Position numbers and translations under genes: made by a program | Notes under the pieces: generated by a model | Seen by the model: the letters and a program-made list of their open reading frames with translations, nothing else | The model's database searches: none | What the model was told of the DNA's origin: nothing | Virus record (IMG/VR): IMGVR_UViG_3300001213_000475 | Coordinates: 1 to 23,639 of that record | From: a virus | Strand: one strand, 5' to 3' | DNA: 23,639 nt | Part shown: one piece after another, positions 3,117-22,452 of the stretch | Layout: every line of letters starts with the position of its first letter | Numbering within the stretch: position 1 is the stretch's first letter

Positions 3117-3303
3117 GTTTCAAATTTGCAATGTCTTCGTTTGATAAATGTAATACATCTTGATACTTTATAATATCTTTCTCAAGTTCATTCTTTATGT
3201 TTGTGAATTGGTTCCATTCAAATGAACGAATCAGATTTGTTGATATGACCCTCTCTACATCAATCAACGTGCTCAACAATCTTTTTAACGAATGTATATT
3301 CAT
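3091..3303 (-). CDS. 70-aa helical hypothetical protein
   Basis: A small, probably all-helical protein with heptad-like spacing of Leu and Ile (LKRLLSTLIDVERVI, then LEKDIIKYQDVLHLS and LKHEIKK). It could form a coiled coil. The ATG overlaps the stop of the DUF723-repeat gene at 3300 as ATGA, and the 3' end overlaps the start of the 51-aa ORF. No family is recognised. It is likely a resident structural or accessory gene of the phage operon. Confidence 0.55.
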   Translation of the reverse strand: MNIHSLKRLLSTLIDVERVISTNLIRSFEWNQFTNIKNELEKDIIKYQDVLHLSNEDIANLKHEIKKTNQ

Positions 3304-3911
3304 TTTTGCTTACATTGTGGACATCCTTGACCTCTCAAATGCTGACTTGCACGTTTGATGGTGATTAGACCATGTATGGGACATCCAATTGTTATAGGGT
3401 AAAGTCGTCCACTATATTTGGTGTCGGTATAATCATATCTCTCTCCGTGGACTCTTATTGCTTTCTCGATGAAAACTTCCTTTGTCAACAACCGTTTTTT
3501 TCGGCTTTCTTTAATGGCACATTTTGGACATATAGAACCTCGTGCGTGGTTGGATGGTAATGTTTGAAATTCGCCGTGAGTAGGACAAATGATTATTACT
3601 TTGGTAGTGTTCCGTTTATAATCAACTTTACTATAATCATATTCTTCCCCATGAACTTCTTTAGAACGTTTGACAAACCAATCAGTATTCCAGATTTGTT
3701 TTCTTTTTGAATTTTTGATATTACATGTATGACATGCAGTATTACGGTGGATGAAATTACTGGCAGAGGAAATTGAGAACCCTCCGTGTATAGGACAGGT
3801 TACATTGTAAATTGGGTCGTTCATTCTGGAATAACCTAAATTATCATAAGTATATTTTTTACCATATACTTTTTTGGCCAGATTTATAAACTGTTCACGA
3901 GTGTATTTCAT
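3300..3911 (-). CDS. DUF723 repeat protein without a nuclease domain
   Basis: 203 aa made only of three DUF723-type repeats (about 4-65, 74-130, 141-200). Each has the (V/I)(Y/H)G..Y.Y core, a C..HG element and a closing C..C (CHTC, CPKC, CPQC). Unlike its neighbours it stops right after the third C..C, so the Vsr/EDxHD-like nuclease domain is missing. It may be a 3'-truncated homing endonuclease or a DNA-binding protein in its own right. Its repeats are more diverged from the others in the window. A strong Shine-Dalgarno (AAAAGGAG, 6 nt before the ATG) lies inside the upstream 49-aa ORF, and both ends use ATGA overlaps. Confidence 0.8.
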   Translation of the reverse strand: MKYTREQFINLAKKVYGKKYTYDNLGYSRMNDPIYNVTCPIHGGFSISSASNFIHRNTACHTCNIKNSKRKQIWNTDWFVKRSKEVHGEEYDYSKVDYKRNTTKVIIICPTHGEFQTLPSNHARGSICPKCAIKESRKKRLLTKEVFIEKAIRVHGERYDYTDTKYSGRLYPITIGCPIHGLITIKRASQHLRGQGCPQCKQK

Positions 3912-4868: not shown

Positions 4869-7493
4869 TTATTTTCTATTTGCCTTCATTTCCTGAATGG
4901 CTTGTTTTATTTGTTCCGTTGTCAATCTATCTGGAGTTTCGGTTGATGGACGTTGATGTGTTTTGTATTTCAATCCTTTATTAGTTCCATAATCATTTGG
5001 AACCTTATCAGATTCTTTCACAATTCCAGATTTGACCTTCTTGGGTTTACTAATAATAACTTCATCCTGCATTCCAACTAATGTATAACCCTCTCGTTCA
5101 CTCTGCTCTGTGCCTCGGTTCTTTTTTTGACCCGGTGCTGCAAACGCATTTGCACTATTATATCCAGCCACTGAAGACGCAGTTGAAATCTCATCTACAG
5201 ATCCAGTGGTTTCAGAATCCCACCCCGGTTCCAATATCTTATCATTCGGAATTTCAACGTCTTTTGTTTTATCCTTATCATCTGGAAATGCAATTTCATT
5301 TGTTGTCGGAAATATATCATTTTTCATGTTCTGCAAGAACGAATCTAAATTTACTTCTTCATCTCCATCATTTCTTGATTTTGATACTTTATCATTCTGT
5401 TTTGGACGTTCATCATTTACCCATTTAGATCCGGGATATGCTGGTGTTGGCGAAGAATACAACTTTATTTCGTTCTGTTTTTTCTTTTTCAATTCCAATA
5501 AAACTTCCATCAAATCATTCTTTGACATGTATTTCAGCATTTCCTTCATGCTTAATTTTGGAGCATCATCTCCAACTGGAATTTTTCCATTTGAATGTCT
5601 AAATGGGTCTTCTCCCGGTTTGACATTATGTTTATCAAATGTTGATGGTTCTGCCATTTTGGGGGATTTTGGTGCATCTTCAATTCGTTTATCTTTATCA
5701 ATATCAAATGGACTTTGAGTATGAGTATTAAGATACAAACTTGGTCTAGGCATTTCAATTTTCTCACCCTTCTTTGGACTCAATCGTTCGCCACGTTGAG
5801 GAACCAATTTCTCTGGTTGTTTTTTTGATTGGTCTTTCGGTATTTCTGGTTCTGGGTCGGTCAACTTCATCTTTGGATTTGGATGATATAAATTGAGATT
5901 CATATCCGCTTCAATAATTGGATCGAAAGCATCAAATTCCTTTTTCTTTTCTCTATCAATGTCACCTTGTCGCAAACGAGCGTTGAATAATTTGCTGGCA
6001 ATATATTCTTTTGCAGCAGCAATTCTTTTCAAACGCTCCACTTCTGGACTCATTTTAATAGGTTCATTTTCAAATTTTGAATCACTTTCATCAATTGGTT
6101 CGGATGGTTTATCCCAATCAGATGGTGTAGATGGTCTGCCAGTTGGAGGTTTTTGTTTCTTAATAATATCGGCATGGGTTGCTCCCATTGACTTGCCAGA
6201 ATTCATGTATGCCAACATTCGTCTCTCACGTTCCTCTTTCGGAAGACCTTTTAATGAGTCAATAAACATTTTATAGAAATCAGACTTAGTGTCTCGGTCA
6301 TTTTCATTAATAGGTTTATCTTTACCATGTTGTGATTTTAAATTATCCAAATAATCCTGTCGCACTTTATCACTAGCATTTTTCGTTTGTGCAACATGAC
6401 GACGAAGAGCATACATTGGATCTTTTTCTGCAAGTTCTTTCTCCATTGCTGCCTTGACTGCACTCAAATCTGGGTCGGGGGTATTTGATAGTTTATTACT
6501 CAATGCTCTGCGTTTAGCACGGTTCCAAGTTCCAGTTGAAGCATGAACAAATCCCTCGGGTTCATCCGCCGATGGTTCTTCATTCTCGTTAACACCATCT
6601 TTCTTTGGTTCCATTGCCTTCAATATGTTTGCATATTGTTTTTTGAACTCAATGTCTTCGGGAGTTAGTTCAGAATCTTCTTTCCCATCAACAGCAGTCA
6701 ATTTTGCCATAATGCGTTGATAATAATCATCGTCGGATTCATTAATTTTCATTGATAAACCAGATGGAGGAACAGATGGACCGACATTTAGATTGGTATT
6801 TTTTTCAGCAGACATCTTATCTTTAATACGTTTTCTCTCTATTTCTCTCTCTTCTGGAGTCATTTGGCTGACCATCTTTTTTACTTGTGGTTGTGCCATT
6901 TTCAATTTTGTCTCGGCATTGGGAAGTTCATGAAATGGATATTCCTCATTTTCGTTCAACTCTGGATCATTTCCATCAGTATCAATATCCACATTTACAT
7001 CTCCATAATAAAGACCTTGGTTGTCCAATTGAGTTCTATATGCTCGTGCTGCTTCTTCCATTGGCATGTTTTCTTTAACATGTTTGTTATAAATTGCCCA
7101 AAGTTCAGCGTATGTTTTTGGATTGTCGTGTCCATATTCTTTTTTCACTCGTTGGGTTATATGCCAGTTAGCATCTCCCCGTCCAAATGAAGGTGGAAGA
7201 TTTTCTTCCATTTTGGCAATCTCTTGAAGCTTTTGTAAAACATGTTCCATCAAAGTTTTCTGTAATGGCGAAAGATTGCCTTGAATATTCAAGGTTTGAA
7301 GTTTGGTGTATTCCGCCAACAACTTCTCTTTGGAGTTTAATTGTTGAACAAATGGATTGCTCACGGGGAACACTTGTGTAGTCCTAATGACGCCTGCCAT
7401 TCGACGAATTGTAATATCTTCGTTGATCTTGGTCGGGGTCGTTTTTGGTTTAATTCCGGCATTACGGCACATTGTCTTGTTGTCTAAACTCAT
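4869..7493 (-). CDS. 874-aa acidic low-complexity protein, possible prohead core or scaffold protein
   Basis: Long, highly charged and rich in Lys, Glu, Asp, Pro and Asn, with few hydrophobic segments, so it is mostly extended or helical. The N-terminus carries two copies of a short motif ending in AG(I/V) (KTMCRNAGI at 6-14, ITIRRMAGV at 27-35), also found in the protease and the 302-aa protein. A more ordered segment (about 98-140) contains GRGDANWHITQRVKKEYG. Near the C-terminus EEVNLDSFLQNM matches acidic motifs in two neighbours. In T4 the scaffold gene follows the gp21 protease; the same order here supports, but does not prove, a scaffold role. Its ATG overlaps the stop of the upstream DUF723 gene (ATGA). 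Confidence 0.7.
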   Translation of the reverse strand: MSLDNKTMCRNAGIKPKTTPTKINEDITIRRMAGVIRTTQVFPVSNPFVQQLNSKEKLLAEYTKLQTLNIQGNLSPLQKTLMEHVLQKLQEIAKMEENLPPSFGRGDANWHITQRVKKEYGHDNPKTYAELWAIYNKHVKENMPMEEAARAYRTQLDNQGLYYGDVNVDIDTDGNDPELNENEEYPFHELPNAETKLKMAQPQVKKMVSQMTPEEREIERKRIKDKMSAEKNTNLNVGPSVPPSGLSMKINESDDDYYQRIMAKLTAVDGKEDSELTPEDIEFKKQYANILKAMEPKKDGVNENEEPSADEPEGFVHASTGTWNRAKRRALSNKLSNTPDPDLSAVKAAMEKELAEKDPMYALRRHVAQTKNASDKVRQDYLDNLKSQHGKDKPINENDRDTKSDFYKMFIDSLKGLPKEERERRMLAYMNSGKSMGATHADIIKKQKPPTGRPSTPSDWDKPSEPIDESDSKFENEPIKMSPEVERLKRIAAAKEYIASKLFNARLRQGDIDREKKKEFDAFDPIIEADMNLNLYHPNPKMKLTDPEPEIPKDQSKKQPEKLVPQRGERLSPKKGEKIEMPRPSLYLNTHTQSPFDIDKDKRIEDAPKSPKMAEPSTFDKHNVKPGEDPFRHSNGKIPVGDDAPKLSMKEMLKYMSKNDLMEVLLELKKKKQNEIKLYSSPTPAYPGSKWVNDERPKQNDKVSKSRNDGDEEVNLDSFLQNMKNDIFPTTNEIAFPDDKDKTKDVEIPNDKILEPGWDSETTGSVDEISTASSVAGYNSANAFAAPGQKKNRGTEQSEREGYTLVGMQDEVIISKPKKVKSGIVKESDKVPNDYGTNKGLKYKTHQRPSTETPDRLTTEQIKQAIQEMKANRK

Positions 7494-8254
7494 ATTTTTA
7501 TTTCCTTTTCTAAAATTGTTTCTACTAAAACTTGTATGTCTGCATTTGTTTGTGCATCATATAGTCTGTTATTTTTCTCATCAAATCGCAAGAACAAACT
7601 TGGATTTATATTTTGTATTAAATCGTTTTGGCGAGATATATCTTTTGATAATAAATTTCCATTTATATCATAATGTCTATATTCATCATATTCGAATATA
7701 ATATTTTTCTTTTTATCATATCCATCTGCAAAATATCCATACAATTCAACTTCTCCTCCATTAAGAGCGTGTTGAAGGTTCAATCCAATCATTTCATTGA
7801 GTTTATCAATGAATAAACAAGCTTTTGGATTATAAGTTTTTACCATTCCACTACCCGGAAATATGCCTTTATCTCTCAATGCTTTTATACATCCAACCCT
7901 AATTTTATGACGGGTTTCGTTGGAATGTTTCTTCCCATATAACGGATGTTTATCTCCACGTTGAGACATTCTCATCTTATTTCGTGTGGAAATTTTATGT
8001 TTCTTTCCAATCCAATTTGTTTTCAAATGTGGAGTATTTTTTTCAATTCCTAATAGTTTACCACACGTAGGGCATCCACGCTTTTGACTTAAATGAAGAT
8101 TTGGAGATTGTTCAAATATACCATGAATCGGACAAATTATATTAACCTTTTCCTTGGAATTTTTATAACAAACTAATGAATAGTTGAATTTATTACTATG
8201 CACAAAACGTGCTTTGGATATAAATTCTTCGGTTGTTAATTTTTTTCCGTTCAT
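7490..8254 (-). CDS. Chimeric putative homing endonuclease: DUF723 repeat, NUMOD3-like motif, distinct nuclease domain
   Basis: 254 aa from ATG at 8254 (MNGKKLTTEEFI); an in-frame TTG at 8272 gives a longer but less likely start. One DUF723 repeat (about 5-65, ending GCPTCG) is followed by a NUMOD3-like DNA-binding segment (HPLYGKKHSNETRHKIR, about 100-116). The C-terminal domain differs from the other DUF723 proteins: NPKACLFIDKLNE, then HALNGGEVELYGYFADGYD, then IIFEYDEYRHY, whose E.D...H spacing resembles the IEIDG.QH site of the neighbours. It is likely a freestanding homing endonuclease assembled from swapped modules. It begins 1 nt after the protease stop and ends in an ATGA overlap with the 874-aa gene. 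Confidence 0.8.
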   Translation of the reverse strand: MNGKKLTTEEFISKARFVHSNKFNYSLVCYKNSKEKVNIICPIHGIFEQSPNLHLSQKRGCPTCGKLLGIEKNTPHLKTNWIGKKHKISTRNKMRMSQRGDKHPLYGKKHSNETRHKIRVGCIKALRDKGIFPGSGMVKTYNPKACLFIDKLNEMIGLNLQHALNGGEVELYGYFADGYDKKKNIIFEYDEYRHYDINGNLLSKDISRQNDLIQNINPSLFLRFDEKNNRLYDAQTNADIQVLVETILEKEIKI

Positions 8255-8255
8255 A

Positions 8256-10616
8256 TTATTTATTATAACCAATCAACTTTTTCATTCTCTCTTTACTGCC
8301 ACGAACGAATTCTTCATTTAAGTGCAATCCTCGGTGACTCTTATTTTTTTGTCTGGTTCTGGAATGTAAATTATTTTCCATATCTCCAAGTGGATCCTCT
8401 CCTCGATCTAAACGACTCCATTCCTTTCTTCCTTCTTGGTCTCTTCGGGATTCTTTTTTACTTATTTCTTCCGCCATAGCTGGTTCTTTCTCAGGTGCAT
8501 TGGCTGTTGCAGTCTTAGTAACTGGTTTAGATGCTCTGGCTTGAGATAGAAAAGTATCTTTACAAGACGGACATATCCCATGACTTACACCAGTAATTTC
8601 TGGATCATGTCTAATGCCATTTTTACACCAAGCACATTGAACATTATAATGTTGATTTATAGGAGCAATCTCATTCACCGATTCACTCGTTTCGGTTGAA
8701 GTTACTGGTATAATGTCTTTCCTATTCGGAGAAATCTCTGTTGATGTTCTTGGTGTTTTACTATTTATTCTCTTCTTTAATCCAAGAGCATTTCCAGATA
8801 AATTTATTTTTGTATTTTTATTTTTTGGAGAAGTGTCATACGTTGCTTCTTTTGTCAAAGAACCACCTTCATCTTCATTGTTTTCAGTTCCAGTTCCAGA
8901 TGTTTTTTCTCTTGGTTTTAACATTGCTTTCATTGCAGCTGGTAAATCCGCAGTATCATCTACATATATTTTTCTGGATTTTCTCAATCCATTTCCACGA
9001 ATATCTGTATTGAATTCACCTTCATGACCAGCAGCATTGACATGATATACATCATCCTGTTCATTCAATTCATTATAATAATTCTCATCTGATAGTAAAT
9101 TGTCAATCACATTTTGAAATGCAATTTCAATATCATCTTCATTTTCAAGTTCCTGTGCCAATGCCATTTGAAGTAGTTCTGAATCTATATCATCAATATC
9201 AATTGAATTTATATCACAATCCTCTTCCAATTTTGCTTTTTTGAGTTTAGTATAATAATGTGGATCTTCCCGTAAATGGTCATTTGCAATTCTCTCAGCT
9301 GAAAGTGGGTCATTCGTATGCTCACGTTCAACTTCAATTCCCATTTTTAATTGTTTCTCAAATGTATTGAATTTGGAATCGTCCAATACTTCTGGCAACA
9401 ATGGATTTGAATTTGGAATTGATGTGGAGGTCTCTTGGTCTTCATTTAAAGGAGTGCCAAGCTTCATTTTATATTGTTGAATGAGTTTGTTCTTTGCCGA
9501 CTTCATCAGATCTTCATCAAGTAATTCATTCAGGTCAATTACTTCGTCGGAAGACTCATTTACCAATACTTCCTCATCTTGAAGACCATCAATGATTTCG
9601 TCAACATCATTATCAGTTACATTTTCAAATTGTTCTTTATATGGGAAATCAATCAAATTGATTATTTGGTCAATACTAACTTCCTTATCGGAAAATTTAT
9701 TGCCATTGTATTCACCTACAAAATCAAACAAACCAGATCCAATAACCAGATGATTAATGGTAGCGGTGAAATCTTTGAAATACAGGAGGATAGAACTATT
9801 CATCAATTCGGTTCTCATATTTGGGAATAGTTCATTCAACTTTTGTTCCAATTCTCTCAATTCACCCTCTTCTTCTGCCATGTCTTGAGTATAGTCTTTG
9901 ATAAAGCGTTCATTGACCTTCTGCTTTGTGTTCAAAATCGTGTCAATACCAGCACTACGTTTCATTCGGTATTGCAAATCATTATCAACTGGTCTATCAA
10001 TATTTTCTGTCAATGGATTTTGTTTCTTGATACCAGCCGCAAATTGAAGACGGTCTTTGAGAGTCATCACTGGAACATCATCATTATTAACAATACGAGT
10101 TTTCTTTCCCTCACATAAAATAAACGCACCTTGAGTAGAAGGATTGCTGACAAAATCGAAACTTACTAACTCGAAATCTTCCCCAACCACGGAAGAATTC
10201 TCTGATACCTTTTTCAAAGACCCAAGTCCACGACTTGAAATACCAATCCTAACTCCCGATTCTAGCAACGATTTTAGGATGTTACCGGACGGAGTGGGCA
10301 GGATTTTCATCGTGGCGTATAGGTCATCCTCGTTCCATTGCAGGTCAGTTATGAGATGGCTGGCATTTTTTAGATTGACAATACTTGATTCTGGATGGTC
10401 CAATTCCCCGAGAGCACGTTTCTCATTGATAAATGTATTTCTATACTTCTCAACTTCTCTTTCCAATACTCCATCAGGATAGATTCTTCCATTCTGATTG
10501 CGTTTTCCCTTTCTTTGAACCAATCCACGCACTATAAATGCATCGCTGGCAGCATTTTCTACAATTCTCTCACATTTGAAAGTGCTATACTCAACCAATA
10601 GATTCTTTTCGCTCAT
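8256..10616 (-). CDS. Prohead core protein/maturation protease, T4 gp21-like, with a long C-terminal extension
   Basis: 786 aa. Residues about 1-170 match the gp21-type (peptidase U9/S78 fold) prohead protease: RNQNGRIYPDGV, ELDHPE with the likely catalytic His74, GISSRGLG with the likely catalytic Ser127/128, and VSFDFVSNPS with Asp154. T4 gp21 is only about 212 aa. Here some 550 extra residues follow: two AGI motifs (186-196, 214-224), a small folded region (about 250-330), acidic linkers with VIDLNELL (359-366), and a zinc ribbon (C661..C664, C682..C685, SHGICPSC). This enzyme would cleave scaffold and head proteins inside the prohead. It is the first recognisable resident head gene of the minus-strand operon, with a DUF723 gene on each side (gaps of 3 nt and 1 nt). 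Confidence 0.9.
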   Translation of the reverse strand: MSEKNLLVEYSTFKCERIVENAASDAFIVRGLVQRKGKRNQNGRIYPDGVLEREVEKYRNTFINEKRALGELDHPESSIVNLKNASHLITDLQWNEDDLYATMKILPTPSGNILKSLLESGVRIGISSRGLGSLKKVSENSSVVGEDFELVSFDFVSNPSTQGAFILCEGKKTRIVNNDDVPVMTLKDRLQFAAGIKKQNPLTENIDRPVDNDLQYRMKRSAGIDTILNTKQKVNERFIKDYTQDMAEEEGELRELEQKLNELFPNMRTELMNSSILLYFKDFTATINHLVIGSGLFDFVGEYNGNKFSDKEVSIDQIINLIDFPYKEQFENVTDNDVDEIIDGLQDEEVLVNESSDEVIDLNELLDEDLMKSAKNKLIQQYKMKLGTPLNEDQETSTSIPNSNPLLPEVLDDSKFNTFEKQLKMGIEVEREHTNDPLSAERIANDHLREDPHYYTKLKKAKLEEDCDINSIDIDDIDSELLQMALAQELENEDDIEIAFQNVIDNLLSDENYYNELNEQDDVYHVNAAGHEGEFNTDIRGNGLRKSRKIYVDDTADLPAAMKAMLKPREKTSGTGTENNEDEGGSLTKEATYDTSPKNKNTKINLSGNALGLKKRINSKTPRTSTEISPNRKDIIPVTSTETSESVNEIAPINQHYNVQCAWCKNGIRHDPEITGVSHGICPSCKDTFLSQARASKPVTKTATANAPEKEPAMAEEISKKESRRDQEGRKEWSRLDRGEDPLGDMENNLHSRTRQKNKSHRGLHLNEEFVRGSKERMKKLIGYNK

Positions 10617-10619
10617 ATT

Positions 10620-11111
10620 TTATATTTGTTTCTGTAAAATTGTTTCTATGTCATTCATGTCGGTATATGGTATTCTTACTAATTTCTTATCGTTATCCAT
10701 TGCCCATTTTGTTTTGATGGCATCTTTCCTCTGAATATTTTCCAAATCTTCTAGTGTAGTTTTATATTTTCCAACGAACCCACACATAAAATGTTGTTCC
10801 CCATCAAATTCAATTAAGGTATTTTTACTTGGAATATAAAAATCAAACTTCAATAATCCCTTATCTCTGCATCCAGAAAACGGTTTTTGATGAACATAAC
10901 CAATACCTTTGAACTCAAGCCATTTTATAATTCTCAATTCTCCTTTGGATGCATTACATATTGGACATCCCTGTTTTTGAAATATATGAGCATCTGGAGT
11001 TTGATTAAATTTACCATGCTTCTTGCAAATTATTTTTACCTTGGTGCGATTGTTTTTATAATCAACTTTTGAATAATCATATAAATCATAATGTATCAAT
11101 TTTGATTTCAT
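10620..11111 (-). CDS. DUF723-repeat putative homing endonuclease, possibly 5'-truncated
   Basis: 163 aa from ATG at 11111: a shortened DUF723 repeat (YDLYDYSKVDY, ICKKHGKF, GCPIC) and a complete Vsr/EDxHD-like nuclease domain (SKGE, LKFDFYIP, LIEFDGEQHF, RIPY). The frame stays open upstream as ..CYDTEFI before that ATG, like the EEF(I/L) found before the repeat in related genes, so the annotated start cuts into the repeat and has no Shine-Dalgarno. An ATG at 11177 with GAGG just upstream is in the same frame but is separated by a TAG at 11157-11159. So this is a decayed gene, one with an unusual start, or a TAG read-through case. The nuclease part is closest to the gene at 15602. Confidence 0.75.
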   Translation of the reverse strand: MKSKLIHYDLYDYSKVDYKNNRTKVKIICKKHGKFNQTPDAHIFQKQGCPICNASKGELRIIKWLEFKGIGYVHQKPFSGCRDKGLLKFDFYIPSKNTLIEFDGEQHFMCGFVGKYKTTLEDLENIQRKDAIKTKWAMDNDKKLVRIPYTDMNDIETILQKQI

Positions 11112-11280
11112 AATGAATTCGGTGTCATAGCAACCAGACTTTACAAGTTGCCAACCCTATACAATAAATATAAACATTTTCCTCTTAATAAAGAAAATAT
11201 TACAAAAATAACGCATAACTTGAAACTACTTTATATTTATTAATAGATTGGAGTTCATATGTGAATGTCCGCAGGGTTGT

Positions 11281-11312
11281 ATTCATAATGTATTGGACAT
11301 GCGATTATGAAT
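11281..11312. repeat. 9-bp perfect palindrome, possible operator
   Basis: ATTCATAAT (11281-11289) and ATTATGAAT (11304-11312) are exact inverted copies 14 nt apart. The predicted -35 box lies in the loop, and the right arm lies in the promoter spacer. That is the layout of a repressor site, but the binding protein is unknown. Confidence 0.5.
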
Positions 11313-11322
11313 GACATATAGT
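11294..11322 (+). promoter_or_regulatory. Sigma70-like promoter of the plus-strand operon
   Basis: TGGACA (11294-11299, 5 of 6 to consensus), a 17-nt spacer, then TATAGT (11317-11322, 5 of 6). The predicted start of transcription near 11329 leaves a leader of only a few bases to the ATG at 11336, or about 25 bases to the in-frame ATG at 11354. Confidence 0.55.
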
Positions 11323-11335
11323 ATCAACTCCTCAT

Positions 11336-12797: not shown

Positions 12798-13010
12798 TTA
12801 TCTATCAATCAATATCATCACATTCTCGTCATTAAAATGTGGAACCAATTTTCCACTAATTTTTCCATCAAATTTACCGCAAAATTTTGCAATCAAAACG
12901 CCAGAAAAAGAACTAATGTATCCACGAGTAATTCCATTCGTATTATAGATTTTGTTGTTTCTTTCTTTGGTATATCCAAGAAGTTCATTTTTTTCGTTTA
13001 CAATTTTCAT
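12798..13010 (-). CDS. 70-aa minus-strand hypothetical protein
   Basis: This lies in the 290-nt gap between the 302-aa gene and the tape measure gene. The translation has short beta-type repeats around Gly (KIVNEKNELLGY, KIYNTNGITRGYI, FCGKFDGKISGKL), which look like a real small beta protein. The overlapping plus-strand frame (12777-13058) is rich in Phe, His and Asn with no pattern and looks like a shadow. No Shine-Dalgarno is seen before ATG 13010. If real, it is the only minus-strand gene inside the plus-strand operon. Confidence 0.5.
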   Translation of the reverse strand: MKIVNEKNELLGYTKERNNKIYNTNGITRGYISSFSGVLIAKFCGKFDGKISGKLVPHFNDENVMILIDR

Positions 13011-13061
13011 ATGGGAACATCATATCATAGTTCGGTTAAATGTCAAGGAGAAATATAAAAT

Positions 13062-15557
13062 ATGCCATCAATTCCAGCACAACAAATATCAGACGAGTTT
13101 GATAAAGTAAACACTTCGGCCAAACTGTTTAGAGACATTCAGGCTGAAGTGTTAGATAGCATAAAAAATCAAAAAGACGCACTTGTAGAAATTTCAACTT
13201 TAGAATTAAAACTCGCCAGAATGAAAGAGAATGGATATTCTAAAAATAATAAGGTTCTAAAAGAAATTGTAAAAAACATAAGAGATCATCAAAATGAAGA
13301 AAAAAAAATAAATGATGAATTGAGAATATCTCAAAAACTTTTGAAGAATATGATGTCTGCTCCACCTACCATGACTTTGGATTTTCAAAAAATGTATGGG
13401 GTTTTAACTAATATTGATAAATTGGCTGGGGATTTTAGTGTCATTGATATGTTTACTGAATTCAAACCAACAATGTATATTGCGGAAAAAATTAAAGAAC
13501 ATATGGGAGGTATTTCCGCAAAAACTGCTGCTTTATTATTTGTTATGAAACAAATTGTAGGCACCTTTATTGATTGGGATAAAGCAGCAACTTCATTTCG
13601 TTATACTATGGGATTTCTTCGTAAAGAGGGAGAATCCATAAATAAAACAGCAAGAGACCTTACTATTCAATATACAAAATTTGGATTGACTCTTAATGAT
13701 TCTTTGTCCACACTACAATCCATGAGTAACTATTTTGGTGGTATATGGAATTACTCAAAACAACTCCTTCCTACATTGGTATTATTTAATACTCAATTAG
13801 GAATTGGTGCTGATACTGCATTGAAAACATTACAGACATTTGCAGTTATGAGTGGAACTCTAATGGAAGCTAATAAGAACACTCTATTGTGGTCTAAATC
13901 TCTCTCAAATGCCGCAGGAGTAAGTTTTAGCGAAGTTCTTGGAGACATTACATCCCTCAATACAAACGCTCTCCTATTATCATCAAGACTACCTTCGGCA
14001 ATTGCAAAAACCGCAGTAGAATTGAGACGCATGGGATCTTCATTCAATGAAGCTGCCGATGCCTCACGTAGCATTTTAAACTTCACTGAGTCTGTTAATG
14101 CCGAGATGGAAGCGTCCGTCCTACTTGGTAAGTCAATCAATTTACAAGGTGCTCGTCAACTTGCTTATAGTAGAGATTTAGAAGGTTCGACCAAGGAAAT
14201 TCTACGTATTGCAAAAGAAAATAATTTTGCTACTGGTATGGATGTATTCCAACAAGAAGCATTCGCAAAAGCAACTGGTAGAAGTGTAGAAGAATTGTTG
14301 AACATGATTCAAATTGATAAAGAACTCAATCATATTCGTGCAGCAGGAACTACCGAACAAAAAGCTCAATTGAAACTGTATGAGGATTTGAGAAAACAAA
14401 ATTCAGCGATGCGTGCTGATATTGCAAAAACTGTCCAGCAACAACTCATGCAAAGATCAAACGCAGAATATTTGGTAGCAATCCAATATAAATGGAATTC
14501 GTTGCTTATTAAGGCACAATCAGTTGTATATCCAATATTAAGTGCATTACTTTCAATTGTTCCAGCTATCATAGACATCTCCGCAAGAATAAATGGTGTG
14601 TATATGGGATTTCTTGGTATATCCAAAATACTCAATGCTATTGGAATTGATTTAAAAGATGTTATTACATCTACAAAATTTATTAAAGATTTGACTTTTG
14701 GAATTTTAGTAATATGGGAGGATATATCTAATTATTTGAAACCAGTTGGCGTATTTTTTTCAAAGATTGGAATCTTTATCGAAAAAATTGCAAGCGGAAT
14801 ATCTAAATTCGTCGGAGAAATTTCAAAAGTATTGCCAATTGTAGGAAAAATATTAGCACCAATTGGTAAGATTGGAATGTTCTTTCTCAAATGGCTTGAA
14901 CCAATTGGTTGGGTAGTGGCAGCAATTCAATTCATCTATTCTCTCGTAACACGATTCAGCAATACTGAATTTGTAAAGGGCGATTGGATTGGTAATATAT
15001 GGAAAGGTATCAAAGCAATCGGCGGAGCACTCTATGATGTATTAATTTCACCATTCGTAGATGCTTATAAATGGATAGCATCGGTTTTTGTTGGAAATTC
15101 TCCATCACAATTGGGAATGGGTATAGTGAATGGTATAGTATCCGTTGGAACTATGATATATGATGCATTAACAAGTCCATTCCGAGATGCTATGGGATGG
15201 ATTGCTAATAAATTTGGATTACATGGAGTTGCCGACAAACTTCGGGGTGGTCTCGGTGGAATGTTGTCAAAACCAGTAGAATCCAAAGCATCAGCAACAT
15301 ATATTGATGCTGTCAAAGTGACCCCAAATGGAACTCGTATAGCAAGTCCTACAAATACGAAAGATTCTATTGTTAACAAAGAAACTGCACAAGATACCAC
15401 CACATTAGCGGATGTAGTATCATCCATCAAAGCACTTACGGATGCTATTACAAGTGGTAAAGTAAAGGCTGGAGATGTATATTTGGATGGAAGTCTTTTA
15501 AGCTCAACTCTCGCTCGTTCGCTTGACTTCCACGGGAACTATGGTGTAAACAAATAA
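13062..15557 (+). CDS. Tape-measure-like tail protein
   Basis: 831 aa. The N-terminal 100 residues are a charged coiled coil. The middle (about 100-480) is helical and Ala/Ser-rich. Residues about 483-540 and 546-628 are long hydrophobic helices (ALLSIVPAIIDISARI, LPIVGKILAPIGKIGMFFL), as usual in phage tape measure proteins. Two repeated blocks follow (about 646-676 and 685-720) of the form (L/I)YD(V/A)L(I/T)SPF.DA..WI. The C-terminus ends in a polar tail with a Thr/Asp-rich helix. Such proteins set tail length and help DNA entry; at about 1.5 angstroms per residue the length would suggest a tail near 120 nm. AAGGAG lies upstream with a long 11-nt spacing. Confidence 0.8.
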   Translation: MPSIPAQQISDEFDKVNTSAKLFRDIQAEVLDSIKNQKDALVEISTLELKLARMKENGYSKNNKVLKEIVKNIRDHQNEEKKINDELRISQKLLKNMMSAPPTMTLDFQKMYGVLTNIDKLAGDFSVIDMFTEFKPTMYIAEKIKEHMGGISAKTAALLFVMKQIVGTFIDWDKAATSFRYTMGFLRKEGESINKTARDLTIQYTKFGLTLNDSLSTLQSMSNYFGGIWNYSKQLLPTLVLFNTQLGIGADTALKTLQTFAVMSGTLMEANKNTLLWSKSLSNAAGVSFSEVLGDITSLNTNALLLSSRLPSAIAKTAVELRRMGSSFNEAADASRSILNFTESVNAEMEASVLLGKSINLQGARQLAYSRDLEGSTKEILRIAKENNFATGMDVFQQEAFAKATGRSVEELLNMIQIDKELNHIRAAGTTEQKAQLKLYEDLRKQNSAMRADIAKTVQQQLMQRSNAEYLVAIQYKWNSLLIKAQSVVYPILSALLSIVPAIIDISARINGVYMGFLGISKILNAIGIDLKDVITSTKFIKDLTFGILVIWEDISNYLKPVGVFFSKIGIFIEKIASGISKFVGEISKVLPIVGKILAPIGKIGMFFLKWLEPIGWVVAAIQFIYSLVTRFSNTEFVKGDWIGNIWKGIKAIGGALYDVLISPFVDAYKWIASVFVGNSPSQLGMGIVNGIVSVGTMIYDALTSPFRDAMGWIANKFGLHGVADKLRGGLGGMLSKPVESKASATYIDAVKVTPNGTRIASPTNTKDSIVNKETAQDTTTLADVVSSIKALTDAITSGKVKAGDVYLDGSLLSSTLARSLDFHGNYGVNK

Positions 15558-15601
15558 AAATAATTGAATTGTTGACCTAAATTTGATAGAATAGTTCGAA
15601 T

Positions 15602-16543
15602 ATGAATGGTAATAAACTAACAACCAAAGAATGGATCTCTAACGCATATAAAGTGCATGGTGAGAAGTATGGGTATGACAAAAGTGTTTATAAATATAGT
15701 AGAGAGAAAATAATAATCATGTGTAAAAAACATGGTGAATTTTTACAAAGACCAAATTGTCATGTAAGTCAAAAACAGGGATGTCCAAAATGCAAATCTA
15801 CACTAATTGGAAATCTTCGCAGAACAACAATAGGAGAATTTCTCCAAAAATGTAAAATGATACATGGAGATCTATATGATTATTCCAAAGTAAATTATAA
15901 AAACAATTCCACTAAAATTGAGATTGTTTGTGAAAAACACGGAAATTTCTGGCAAGTAGCAAGTAGTCATTTATTAGGACACGGTTGTTCTAAATGTCAT
16001 TTTGAAAATTTATCAGACCTCTATACCTCCACCAAAAAGGAATTTCTTCAACAATGCAAGGATATTCACGGAATCATTTATAATTATTCCAAATCAATTT
16101 ATGTAAATAATAGAACAAAAGTTGAAATAATCTGCACTAAACATGGATCATTTTTACAAAGACCACATGATCATTTGAGTGGAAATGGATGCCCAAAATG
16201 TAATTCTTCGAAAGGAGAATTGGAAATAATAAAAGTGTTGACAAAAAATAACATAGAGTTTGTTAATCAAAAGAGATTTAATGATTGTAGAGATAAAATT
16301 CCATTGCCATTCGATTTCTTCATACCATCAAAAAATGTATTGATTGAATACGATGGAGAACAACATTTCAAATTTGGATGTAATATGGGGAAATATATTA
16401 CCACCGAGAAAAATTTAAGAGACACCCAAAAGAAAGATGCTATCAAAACGAAATATGCCGAAGATTCTGGTAAGAAACTCATTCGTATTCCATATACGGA
16501 AATGAAGAATATAGAAACAATTTTGGAAAAGGAAATAAGATGA
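15602..16543 (+). CDS. DUF723-repeat putative homing endonuclease (three repeats plus nuclease)
   Basis: 313 aa. Three DUF723-type zinc-ribbon units (about 7-62, 77-135, 148-203) each have (V/M/I)HG..Y.Y, C..HG.F and C..C (CPKC, CSKC, CPKC). A Vsr/EDxHD-like nuclease domain follows (about 205-313) with SKGELE, LPFDFFIP, LIEYDGEQHF and RIPYTEM. It belongs with the gene at 10620 by its nuclease sequence (both have CRDK, DGEQHF and KDAIKTK). It is the only such gene on the plus strand here and is inserted between the tape measure gene and a virion-type protein. Its stop overlaps the next ATG (ATGA). Confidence 0.88.
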   Translation: MNGNKLTTKEWISNAYKVHGEKYGYDKSVYKYSREKIIIMCKKHGEFLQRPNCHVSQKQGCPKCKSTLIGNLRRTTIGEFLQKCKMIHGDLYDYSKVNYKNNSTKIEIVCEKHGNFWQVASSHLLGHGCSKCHFENLSDLYTSTKKEFLQQCKDIHGIIYNYSKSIYVNNRTKVEIICTKHGSFLQRPHDHLSGNGCPKCNSSKGELEIIKVLTKNNIEFVNQKRFNDCRDKIPLPFDFFIPSKNVLIEYDGEQHFKFGCNMGKYITTEKNLRDTQKKDAIKTKYAEDSGKKLIRIPYTEMKNIETILEKEIR

Positions 16544-18609: not shown

Positions 18610-18748
18610 CTTCGTTGTTTCTGACAATCATCTTACGAGTTGAATGTGCTTTTAATGCTGCTGCTGTTCGGTCAATTTTCTGATGGCGAATGGTATTGTG
18701 AGCTTTATTTGCCGCAATAATGCGAGATGGAGATTTTAATTTTTTCAT
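18596..18748 (-). CDS. 50-aa basic hypothetical protein
   Basis: Starts MKKLKSPSRIIAANKAHNTI and is rich in Arg, Lys, His and Ala, probably helical and able to bind nucleic acid. The longer open frame (from 18904) runs antisense to the INT_rpt gene and is not believed. ATG 18748 is chosen because a sigma70-like promoter ends 7 nt before it. That predicts a leaderless message starting at or near the A of the ATG. No family recognised. Confidence 0.5.
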   Translation of the reverse strand: MKKLKSPSRIIAANKAHNTIRHQKIDRTAAALKAHSTRKMIVRNNEVIGV

Positions 18749-18755
18749 ATAGAGT

Positions 18756-18784
18756 ATAATATCAAATTTTAGAAGCAGTATCAA
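18756..18784 (-). promoter_or_regulatory. Sigma70-like promoter, leaderless type
   Basis: TTGATA (18779-18784), a 17-nt spacer, then TATTAT (18756-18761), read on the minus strand. The ATG of the 50-aa gene follows 7 nt after the -10 box, so transcription should begin at about the start codon. The promoter starts just after the end of the INT_rpt gene. Confidence 0.5.
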
Positions 18785-18788
18785 GGAG

Positions 18789-19292
18789 TTATTTCTCGAC
18801 ACCACCCAACCAGTCGCTCCAAGAAATCCATCCTTTATTTTTGTAAACTTGATGTGGATTGGATGGTATAACAAACCATTTTTCTCCTGATTTACAATAT
18901 TCATTCCACTCCCTGAAATTTTTTAATTTCAAGGATAGTGAAATTTTCTTGGCATCATTGAAATCCAACCATTTGCCATCAAATCCAATTTTGGTTCCTA
19001 GAAAATCACTCCACGATTTCCATTCGTTTTTATAAATTTGTGGTGGAAGTGCAGGTATATTATGATGTCTCTTCCCAGATTTACAATATTCATACCACTC
19101 TTTTTGTTTTTTAAATCCCAGTGAATGAACAAATGTTTTTGCGTCTTTAAATGAAAAAAATTTGCTGCTTTTTTGAGCATTGAAATCAAATCCATTTTCT
19201 TTTAACAATTTTATCTTCCACGGCGACAGATTTCCCGTTTTATGATAATAGCGACAATTCCATTCCCATGATTGTATTTCTTGTTCATTCAT
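18789..19292 (-). CDS. Two-repeat INT_rpt (phage-integrase repeat) protein
   Basis: 167 aa. The N-terminal 40 residues (SWEWNCRYYHKTGNLSPWK, GFDFNAQ) resemble a helicase-associated-type helical module. Two copies of the INT_rpt pattern follow (about 43-100, 105-165): F.DAK.....L......EW.EYCKSG....IP..P...YK..W.SW.D(F/W)LG. No integrase or nuclease domain is present. Known INT_rpt units occur beside integrase domains and probably bind DNA. It is related to the five-repeat gene at 21304. A perfect TTGACA promoter ends 7 nt before the ATG. It faces the helicase gene divergently. Confidence 0.75.
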   Translation of the reverse strand: MNEQEIQSWEWNCRYYHKTGNLSPWKIKLLKENGFDFNAQKSSKFFSFKDAKTFVHSLGFKKQKEWYEYCKSGKRHHNIPALPPQIYKNEWKSWSDFLGTKIGFDGKWLDFNDAKKISLSLKLKNFREWNEYCKSGEKWFVIPSNPHQVYKNKGWISWSDWLGGVEK

Positions 19293-19299
19293 TCCTCAC

Positions 19300-19327
19300 A
19301 TATTACCACACTCCATCCCAATGTCAA
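19300..19327 (-). promoter_or_regulatory. Sigma70-like promoter, leaderless type
   Basis: TTGACA (19322-19327, perfect), a 16-nt spacer, then TAATAT (19300-19305), read on the minus strand. Only GTGAGGA separates the -10 box from ATG 19292, so the transcript should start at about the start codon. Confidence 0.6.
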
Positions 19328-19368
19328 CTGTATTTTCACCAACCTACAAAAATATTTCGTAATACATC

Positions 19369-19397
19369 TTGACATTATAATCTGTTTATGCTATTGT
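19369..19397 (+). promoter_or_regulatory. Sigma70-like promoter of the helicase gene, leaderless type
   Basis: TTGACA (19369-19374, perfect), a 17-nt spacer, then TATTGT (19392-19397, 4 of 6). ATG 19406 follows 8 nt after the -10 box. A TATAAT at 19376-19381 also exists but has no -35 partner. The two divergent -35 boxes are 41 bp apart. Confidence 0.5.
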
Positions 19398-19405
19398 ATG
19401 TAGCA

Positions 19406-21307
19406 ATGAAACATTTTATCCAACAGTCCAACATCCACTTGAAAACTGGATGGAACTCCACTCGTCAGCCAATCGTTTCTGATTTTGGAGGACCAAAAAC
19501 AGCAAGACCTTGGCAATCCGCCGCATTCAATAAACTCAAAAATAAACCAGTTTCAGCCATTTGTGGACCTCCTGCTACTGGTAAAAATTTCTTCATTGAA
19601 CTGTTCGCCGCCGAATACCTTCGCCTCAACCCCAATAACAAAGTCATCATCGCCGCCCCACAAAAAAATATCACCGAAAACATGCGGGTGGAGACATTCA
19701 TTCTACCTTCAACAAAAGAAACCGTAAACTGGTGTCCTTCATATCTCAACGAAACAAGGTATAATACCGACTCCACCACCGAATTGTCAAGAACATTTTT
19801 GGAATCTCCCGGCATTGTCGGAGACATCAATAGTCGGGCAATCATAATGACCCATAATACATTGGTCAATATTCATAAAGAACTCAAACATCTGTTGAAG
19901 AACATTCTGGTCATTTTCGATGAATATCACCACATCCTATACGGAGAAAATGACGAGGGGTTTGTTGAAACCAACCAACTTGGAGACCTCGTAAGATACA
20001 TCCTTGATAACAAATCTCTCAATGCTCATATTCTCTTGGCAACTGCCACTCCCTTTCGTGGTGACAAATATCCAATCATTCCTGATGGTGTATTGACTCC
20101 TGAATGTGAATATGAACATCCCTATGATGAAGCTTGGCAGGATTTCGCCCCACTTGAACATTTCAGCGTGGATTTCATCCTCTATAAGGGCAATACCTAT
20201 AAAAAGGCGATGGGTGAACTAATGGGTAAGAAAATTGAACCCTCATTGATTTTCATTCCTAACGTAGGGTCACGGTATTCGGTTGGTGATAAACATAAGG
20301 ATGTCATTGAATGCTACAAATCAATATCAGGCAAGGATAAACCAACCATCAAAAAAGACGATATTTTCACTCTTGTCAAAAAAGGCAAGGATTGGATACG
20401 TTGTATTGACTTGGTTGATGAAGACAATCGTGCCGAAAAATTCAAGGTCATCAATGCAGACCATGCCAATTTAGACCCAACCAAGCGTAAAATTGACATT
20501 ATCATTGCTTTGGGAACCATGAAGGAAGGAGCAAACCATAGATGGTTGAAGAATGCCTACGTAATCGGTGCCAGAGGGTCATTACGTGAGTTTGTTCAGA
20601 TGAGTGGTAGGTTGTTCCGCTCTGCCGAAGGAAAGACCGATGTAAAGGTCTATTACATGCTTCCTCACTCAACCAATGTCGGCACAGATGAATACGAAGA
20701 GAATTTCAATGAATATCTCAAAGCAACCATGTCATCCTTGCTTCTGATTAAAGTCTATGCTCCCCGTCTCATTGAAACCCCAGTTGAAGGTGAGGAAATT
20801 GACATCTATGGTCATGCCCGACAGAAAACAGTTAGCTACATCAATACCGTCCTTCCCGATTCCGAAGACCAAGAAAGACTACTGGAAGACTCCTATGATG
20901 CCATTGTCAATGCCTCAGAAGAGTTTGATGATGGACTGACATTCAAACATGGCAAGATAACTCCTGAACAAGGACTTCTGTTGAAAGCATCATTGGATGT
21001 TGTTTTGGACGACTTCAAGATTAAAGATAGACGGGAGGAAGTCAAGGAAGAGATTCTTCGCTGGTTTGCGATGAAGAACATTGCCACGATGTTGGAGACC
21101 AATGGAATGAATGTGAACACCATTGATTATGACATGGTGAAGGATATTCATCCATTGGCATGGTCGTTGTCTTGTTATTCAAATGCGTTTGGGATTAAGA
21201 CATTCAAGGAGTATCGTGAGGCAGTGGAGAAATCACGGGCACTGTGGATGGCACAGTTTGAAGAATGGAAGAAATATAATAAAGAACGGCAATCTGTTGA
21301 AGTATGA
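19406..21307 (+). CDS. SF2 DEAD/DEAH-type DNA helicase/ATPase
   Basis: 633 aa from ATG 19406. An in-frame ATG at 19388 would lie upstream of the predicted transcription start, so the shorter form is chosen. Superfamily 2 motifs are clear: Walker A GPPATGKN (54-61), motif II DEYH (172-175), motif III ATATP (212-216), and motif VI QMSGRLFR (398-405) with GTMKEGANHRW before it. Both RecA-like lobes are present, plus a helical C-terminal region of about 200 residues. It could serve recombination, replication restart or transcription switching, as UvsW does in T4; I cannot tell which. Its base composition is less AT-rich than the flanking INT_rpt genes. Its TGA overlaps the next gene (ATGA). Confidence 0.85.
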   Translation: MKHFIQQSNIHLKTGWNSTRQPIVSDFGGPKTARPWQSAAFNKLKNKPVSAICGPPATGKNFFIELFAAEYLRLNPNNKVIIAAPQKNITENMRVETFILPSTKETVNWCPSYLNETRYNTDSTTELSRTFLESPGIVGDINSRAIIMTHNTLVNIHKELKHLLKNILVIFDEYHHILYGENDEGFVETNQLGDLVRYILDNKSLNAHILLATATPFRGDKYPIIPDGVLTPECEYEHPYDEAWQDFAPLEHFSVDFILYKGNTYKKAMGELMGKKIEPSLIFIPNVGSRYSVGDKHKDVIECYKSISGKDKPTIKKDDIFTLVKKGKDWIRCIDLVDEDNRAEKFKVINADHANLDPTKRKIDIIIALGTMKEGANHRWLKNAYVIGARGSLREFVQMSGRLFRSAEGKTDVKVYYMLPHSTNVGTDEYEENFNEYLKATMSSLLLIKVYAPRLIETPVEGEEIDIYGHARQKTVSYINTVLPDSEDQERLLEDSYDAIVNASEEFDDGLTFKHGKITPEQGLLLKASLDVVLDDFKIKDRREEVKEEILRWFAMKNIATMLETNGMNVNTIDYDMVKDIHPLAWSLSCYSNAFGIKTFKEYREAVEKSRALWMAQFEEWKKYNKERQSVEV

Positions 21308-22452
21308 CCATAAAACAGATTAGAACGTGGGAAGTTACTCAACGAATCAACTTCAATAATAATGATTTACCACAATGGAAAATCAATCTATTAAATGATT
21401 CAGGATTTGATTTTGAAAATCAACTGATCAAAAATGTTCTTCCATTTGAAATTGCCAGAAAATTTGTTCGGGATTTAAAATTCAAAGGAACCGTAGAATG
21501 GAATGAGTATTTAAAATCGGGAAACAGACCCGAAAATATTCCATCACATCCAAATAGAAAATATGAATTGGAATGGATCTCTTTGGGAGATTGGTTAGGA
21601 ACAACGCCGGGATTTGGTGGAACTTATTTATCATATGATGATGCTAAAAAAATTATTCATCCATTGAAATTACAAAGTTCATTTGAATATAGAGATTATT
21701 GTAAATCTGGAAAAAAACCTCATAACATACCATTTGCTCCACAACAAACCTACATCGGAAAAGGATGGATAAGTTTTGGAGACTTTTTAGGCAATGGTGT
21801 AATTGCATCATTCAATAATAAATATCTTCCATTTGAATCGGCAAGGAGTATGGCGAGACAACTTAATTTAAAAACGGGGAAGGAGTGGAGGAATTATTGT
21901 GATTCAGTAAAATTGCCAGTCGGAATGCCAAATGCTCCGTGGCATGTGTATAAAGATGATGGATTCATATCAATGGGGGATTGGCTAGGAACTGGTAATA
22001 TTGCAAATTATAATAAAAAATTCATTACATATAATAAATGCAAAGAGTTTGCCATCCAGAACAAAATAAAATCGGCACAACAATGGAACGATTTCTTTAA
22101 ACAAAATCATCCCACAAACATCCCACAAAAACCTGCTAGAAATTATAAAAATAAAGGATGGAAATCGTGGGGAGATTTTCTTGGAACTGGAAGTTTTGGA
22201 CCTAAATCCAATAATAGATACATGAGTTTTAAAAAAGCGAGGAAAATAGTCAGAACCCTTGATCTTTCAAATAGACAAGAATGGACAAAATTAAAGAATA
22301 AGCCAAAAAATATTCCAGTTGTTGCCCATATAGTGTATAAAGATAAAGGATGGATTGATTGGTATGACTTTCTTGGAATTACTAAAGAGAAATCGAGAGA
22401 AATCCAACAGCAAAGAATATGGAAATCTCGAATACAAAATGAACCCCATTGA
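21304..22452 (+). CDS. Five-repeat INT_rpt (phage-integrase repeat) protein
   Basis: 382 aa. The N-terminal module (TWEVTQRINFNNNDLPQWK, GFDFENQ) matches that of the gene at 18789. Five INT_rpt units follow (about 44-105, 107-170, 173-236, 239-302, 306-368), each ending (G/D)(W/F)(I/K)S.GD(W/F)LG or close to it, with EW.(E/N)Y.KSG and IP..P in the middle. No catalytic domain is visible, so it is probably a modular DNA-binding protein or a relic of a mobile gene. It is AT-rich and sits exactly between the helicase (ATGA overlap) and the Rossmann-type gene (14-nt overlap), both less AT-rich, which suggests insertion. Confidence 0.8.
   Translation: MTIKQIRTWEVTQRINFNNNDLPQWKINLLNDSGFDFENQLIKNVLPFEIARKFVRDLKFKGTVEWNEYLKSGNRPENIPSHPNRKYELEWISLGDWLGTTPGFGGTYLSYDDAKKIIHPLKLQSSFEYRDYCKSGKKPHNIPFAPQQTYIGKGWISFGDFLGNGVIASFNNKYLPFESARSMARQLNLKTGKEWRNYCDSVKLPVGMPNAPWHVYKDDGFISMGDWLGTGNIANYNKKFITYNKCKEFAIQNKIKSAQQWNDFFKQNHPTNIPQKPARNYKNKGWKSWGDFLGTGSFGPKSNNRYMSFKKARKIVRTLDLSNRQEWTKLKNKPKNIPVVAHIVYKDKGWIDWYDFLGITKEKSREIQQQRIWKSRIQNEPH

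Follow-up and report, generated by a model that had tools for sequence, protein, structure and literature searches.

The window, i.e., the whole stretch of DNA analyzed here, is the viral record IMGVR_UViG_3300001213_000475 (23.6 kb; 23,639 nt), which has a GC content of 35% and belongs to an environmental T4-like phage. The promoters and genes under consideration are listed in Table 1. Relatives of the prohead protease in Mel-JY01 and immuto measure about 195-220 aa, compared with 786 aa for the fused form found here. Look-alike ORFs (816-1550, 2032-2964, 3300-3911, 7490-8272, 10620-11111 (minus) and 15602-16543 (plus)) sit among the structural genes; three of them match DUF4379 (treble clef), and their appearance suggests that homing-type genes inserted repeatedly. 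The two INT_rpt-related paralogues (18789-19292 and 21304-22452) are 46% identical and lie on either side of the helicase gene. Assignment of a host from 15 matches was rejected, as these came from scattered metagenome bins and were taken as contamination. Searches with the helicase, the tape measure and the 70-aa ORF yielded no close relatives, nor did the full-length prohead protease as a query, so that the footprint described below comes from genes of other contigs.

Table 1. Promoters and genes of the window
Feature	Position	Strand	Remarks
Extended -10 promoter, TTGATA-17-(TGA)TATTAT	18756..18784	minus	7 nt to ATG 18748
Extended -10 promoter, TTGACA-16-(TGG)TAATAT	19300..19327	minus	7 nt to ATG 19292
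Extended -10 promoter, TTGACA-17-(TGC)TATTGT	19369..19397	plus	8 nt to ATG 19406
Extended -10 promoter, TTGACA-16-(TGA)TATGAT	13019..13046	minus	11/12; 8 nt to ATG 13010
Weaker extended -10 promoter, TTGAAT-17-(TGA)TAGAAT	15564..15592	plus	9/12; 9 nt to ATG 15602
TGGACA-17-TATAGT, without TG	11294..11322	plus	13 nt to ATG 11336; outside the tight group
Basic ORF, 50 aa	18596..18748	minus	no family match; behind the promoter at 18756..18784
Protein, 167 aa	18789..19292	minus	sub-threshold INT_rpt match
DEAD/ResIII-type helicase, 633 aa	19406..21307	plus
ORF, 70 aa	12798..13010	minus	no family match; fills the gap between two plus-strand genes
DUF4379 (treble-clef) protein, 313 aa	15602..16543	plus
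Prohead protease S77	8256-10616	minus	786 aa in all; long extension with DUF5661 domain
Tape measure	13062-15557		weak match only

Promoters adjoining start codons in the window

Three sigma70-like promoters located 7-8 nt before ATG codons had been named in a preliminary description of this DNA, and all three were confirmed, with gaps of 7, 7 and 8 nt at 18748, 19292 and 19406, respectively. Each is an extended -10 promoter, with a TG that is rare among the promoter-like sites listed for the window. Throughout the tight group of promoters next to start codons, the -35 and -10 hexamers are spaced by 16-17 nt, i.e., within the 16-18 nt of the sigma-70 type. Six extended sites of the window reach a score of 10/12 or more; four of these are placed 7-8 nt ahead of an ORF-opening ATG, and the other two fall inside other genes. 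The minus-strand promoter at 13010 is the best-scoring extended site of the whole window. The three sites in the 660-bp region are real but not special to it, since the arrangement also occurs at 13010, at 15602 and in related contigs. The promoter at 11294, which had been described as almost as close to its ATG, is a weaker site; a hairpin around 11249-11332 was no better than those in shuffled sequences (z = 0.05).

No Shine-Dalgarno (SD) site at a working distance precedes these starts, and the GAGGA at 19292 directly adjoins the ATG, which is too close for it to act as an SD. The start codons and ORFs themselves are supported by an alignment of the 19292 protein with its paralogue at 21304 from Met1 on, and by the codon scores of the 50-aa (18748) and 70-aa (13010) ORFs, which exceed those of all 114 spurious frames. 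Upstream of the helicase start there is another in-frame ATG, at 19388, with a perfect TATAAT (19376-19381) 6 nt ahead of it. This ATG, which sits upstream of the transcript start expected for 19406, is a possible second leaderless start.

As a control, the 1165 ATGs of the window that are not gene starts were considered, 4 of which are preceded at 4-10 nt by a site scoring 10/12 or better. The number expected for the 26 gene starts is 0.09, compared with three observed, which bears out the view that the spacing is hard to put down to chance. (Note that the corresponding P of about 1e-4 is only rough, because the 26 starts were hand-picked; as the cases had also been pointed out in advance, an independent test in relatives carries more weight.)

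Promoter spacing and start signals in related contigs

Relatives were gathered from an alignment of the protease, which resulted in 80 loci. The pattern TTGAC-N14..16-TGnTAnnnT-N4..10-ATG occurred 30 times in 34 records, compared with 6 times for the reversed pattern; some of these records overlap, G012 and G013 having four sites in common. At a distance of 24-30 nt the same pattern occurred 11 times in the 34 records, with 8 of the 11 in two long records. For the distance counts, copies were removed, ORF-opening ATGs at most 60 nt from a TTGAC...TGnTAnnnT promoter were considered, and contigs were split into two classes by the base before the ATG. Regarding class 1 (17 contigs, 594 kb, window excluded), 13 of the 24 ATGs were at 5-9 nt, nine of them at exactly 6 nt, and several contigs had no such promoter-ATG case. 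Regarding class 2 (44 contigs, 934 kb), none of the 23 ATGs was at 4-9 nt, and the one at 10 nt was a T4 site. In the tree of the prohead protease, the window and 17 contigs form one clade of 18 T4-like sequences (support 98/97), in which most genes are without an SD site and begin as TATG. The exact position of the window within it is unsure because its branch is long. All 17 clade contigs have T-1 values of at least 0.62, and three borderline contigs (0.56-0.57) fall outside the clade.

The -10 hexamer is located exactly 6 nt before the ATG of the orthologues of an RlaP-like nucleotidyltransferase in four contigs and of Mom in six contigs, according to a criterion passed by 1.3% of random positions. 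Within the Mom set, G005 has an overlapping hexamer at 0 nt with an equal score, and some orthologues have a weak -35 (3-4 of 6). The partial orthologue L007 is without such a promoter, and the promoter of the DUF5662 gene is present in G002 and absent before the orthologues in G013 and G015. Orthologous proteins in the relatives start at the same ATG. As transcription usually begins about 7 nt past the -10, a gap of 6 nt predicts a start at the A of the ATG, and the gaps of 7-9 nt in the window, compared with 6 nt in most relatives, predict leaders of about 0-3 nt. In L093 (G011:C1:8710, 9310 and 9579, minus), each of three adjacent genes is preceded, at exactly 6 nt from its ATG, by a near-identical promoter of its own.

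The pooled start profile shows no prominent -10 at 6 nt, so that only a minority of genes would be arranged with a promoter near the ATG. When consensus and spacer were kept constant, 87 stretches in the whole of IMG/VR had a gap of 6 nt and 74 a gap of 27 nt; among the loci retrieved, 49 of 65 distinct cases at 6 nt and 29 of 42 at 27 nt open an ORF. Because the two gaps are about equally frequent, the 6-nt geometry is not restricted to this clade; the group is distinguished by how concentrated and conserved this geometry is and by its association with SD-poor TATG starts.

SD-like sites occur at few genes of class 1 (mean 0.13). A T at -1 is found in 71% of the genes called in the window and in 73% of those pooled from eight relatives and the window, compared with a background of 27% before any ATG. 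Since it is kept in genes that overlap the preceding gene (72%), the signal seems to be one of translation and not just a mark left by transcript starts. The protein bS21 was not found in the checked records of the SD-poor TATG group, many of which are fragments, and is common among related contigs outside this group that have SD sites; G024, which has an intermediate T-1, has one. Its absence from the group is suggestive only, and it does not define the lineage, as T4, S-WAM1 and Flavobacterium phage immuto are also without bS21. Immuto has few SD sites and a T at -1 in 53% of its genes, and SD-poor T-1 starts are therefore not wholly peculiar to this group.

Probable leaderless messages and alternative explanations

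The sites are most probably extended -10 promoters of the sigma-70 type which give rise to leaderless or near-leaderless mRNA, with SD-independent initiation at the 5'-AUG. That the messages are leaderless or nearly so (predicted leaders of 0-3 nt) is very likely in view of the geometry, the enrichment over control ATGs, the distance peak in the relatives and the fixed 6-nt spacing of the orthologues. RNA polymerase would begin at the A of the ATG or as much as about 3 nt upstream of it, the promoters presumably being read by the host sigma-70 polymerase, and the mRNA would be translated by SD-independent initiation at its 5'-terminal AUG. In a lineage that rarely has an SD and mostly has T-AUG starts, nothing upstream of the AUG would need to be transcribed, and a promoter could thus be fused to the start codon ahead of single accessory genes. 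The preliminary description had proposed leaderless transcription as an early-gene mode; its leaderless part is well supported by the evidence above, and early timing is plausible given that the promoters are of the host sigma-70 type. We infer the actual transcript start, the use of sigma-70, translation from the 5'-AUG and the early timing.

In DNA with 35% GC, sequences resembling TTGACA and TATAAT arise often, and some of them will land before an ATG. Indeed, the window contains 72 promoter-like sites compared with 58.7 +/- 7.1 in shuffles, which indicates that most of them are due to chance, and the cases were selected after the fact; as an explanation of the sites next to start codons, however, coincidence is very unlikely, because it accounts neither for the enrichment over control ATGs nor for the distance peak in other contigs and the fixed spacing in orthologues. 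It is also improbable that the promoters are real but followed by an ordinary short leader, with the true start codon elsewhere or transcription coming from another upstream promoter. The in-frame ATG at 19388, with the TATAAT just before it, would fit such a leader for the 19406 gene, but a start at 19388 would be leaderless too; the GAGGA at 19292 would also fit, were it not too close for an SD, but Met1 of this protein aligns with the paralogue, and the orthologous proteins of the relatives begin at a common ATG.

T4 late promoters are read by a phage sigma factor, and as the phage is T4-like they provide a precedent for promoters that depend on a phage-encoded sigma factor or polymerase (e.g., of the T4 late type) instead of host sigma-70. 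The presence of -35 boxes at 16-17 nt and of extended -10s makes this origin improbable, as does the lack of a clear peak of TATAAATA at 5-10 nt in class 1. The T4-type late promoter (TATAAATA without a -35) was rejected for the sites at hand, there being no enrichment near the ATG, and the Bacteroidetes promoter (TAnnTTTG -7 element) was rejected because it is not enriched upstream of genes.

Known systems and possible functions

T4 early promoters share with the leaderless arrangement proposed here the sigma-70 type and a T4-like phage, whereas in the 50 kb of T4 examined most such sites are at a greater distance upstream and SD sites are frequent. The cI message of phage lambda, transcribed from PRM, is a leaderless phage transcript. 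It likewise combines a phage gene, a sigma-70 promoter and a transcript start at the AUG (here predicted), but the present case involves several genes per contig, a 6-nt spacing conserved in relatives and an SD-poor lineage. Leaderless genes of bacteria (Actinobacteria and Deinococcus-Thermus; e.g., mycobacteria) also have a promoter that abuts the start codon, no SD and an expected start at the AUG (PMC4633059); here they are predicted from sequence alone, in T4-like phages, with a clear -35 and an extended -10. For the SD-free initiation of Flavobacterium johnsoniae (Bacteroidetes), A at -3, -6, -12 and -13 has been stressed (PMC6847099), whereas the signal in these genes, which are also without an SD, is T at -1. 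According to PMC5312081, phage transcripts are often leaderless, and leaderless phage genes are already known; the present one is a new case in an unusual T4-like lineage. The literature searched (open papers only) did not yield any account of such an arrangement in T4-like phages.

The genes behind such promoters in the window encode the helicase, the protein with the weak INT_rpt match, the DUF4379 protein and the two short ORFs. In the relatives they encode Mom (PF25680), an Apyc1-like protein (PF23023), NADAR, an RlaP-like nucleotidyltransferase, a pyrimidine-dimer glycosylase and DUF5662, and probably include counter-defence genes, which would profit from immediate expression and in this respect fit an early use. 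A broader and rather speculative reading is that this T4-like lineage, with its TATG starts and no bS21 found, may largely have given up SD-guided initiation, and that promoter-plus-AUG modules may express accessory genes as early leaderless messages, several of them probably for counter-defence (Mom DNA modification, Apyc1-like anti-Pycsar, NADAR and RlaP-like RNA repair).

Leaderless genes would be predictable in uncultured phages without further data than their sequence, and a fixed distance between -10 and AUG, conserved between orthologues, is now available. The arrangement goes together with a marked shift of start signals in one phage lineage, where SD sites are few and TATG starts prevail. 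It also makes short genes, for example the one at 13010, easier to find, and points to a set of predicted leaderless genes, some of them with probable counter-defence functions.
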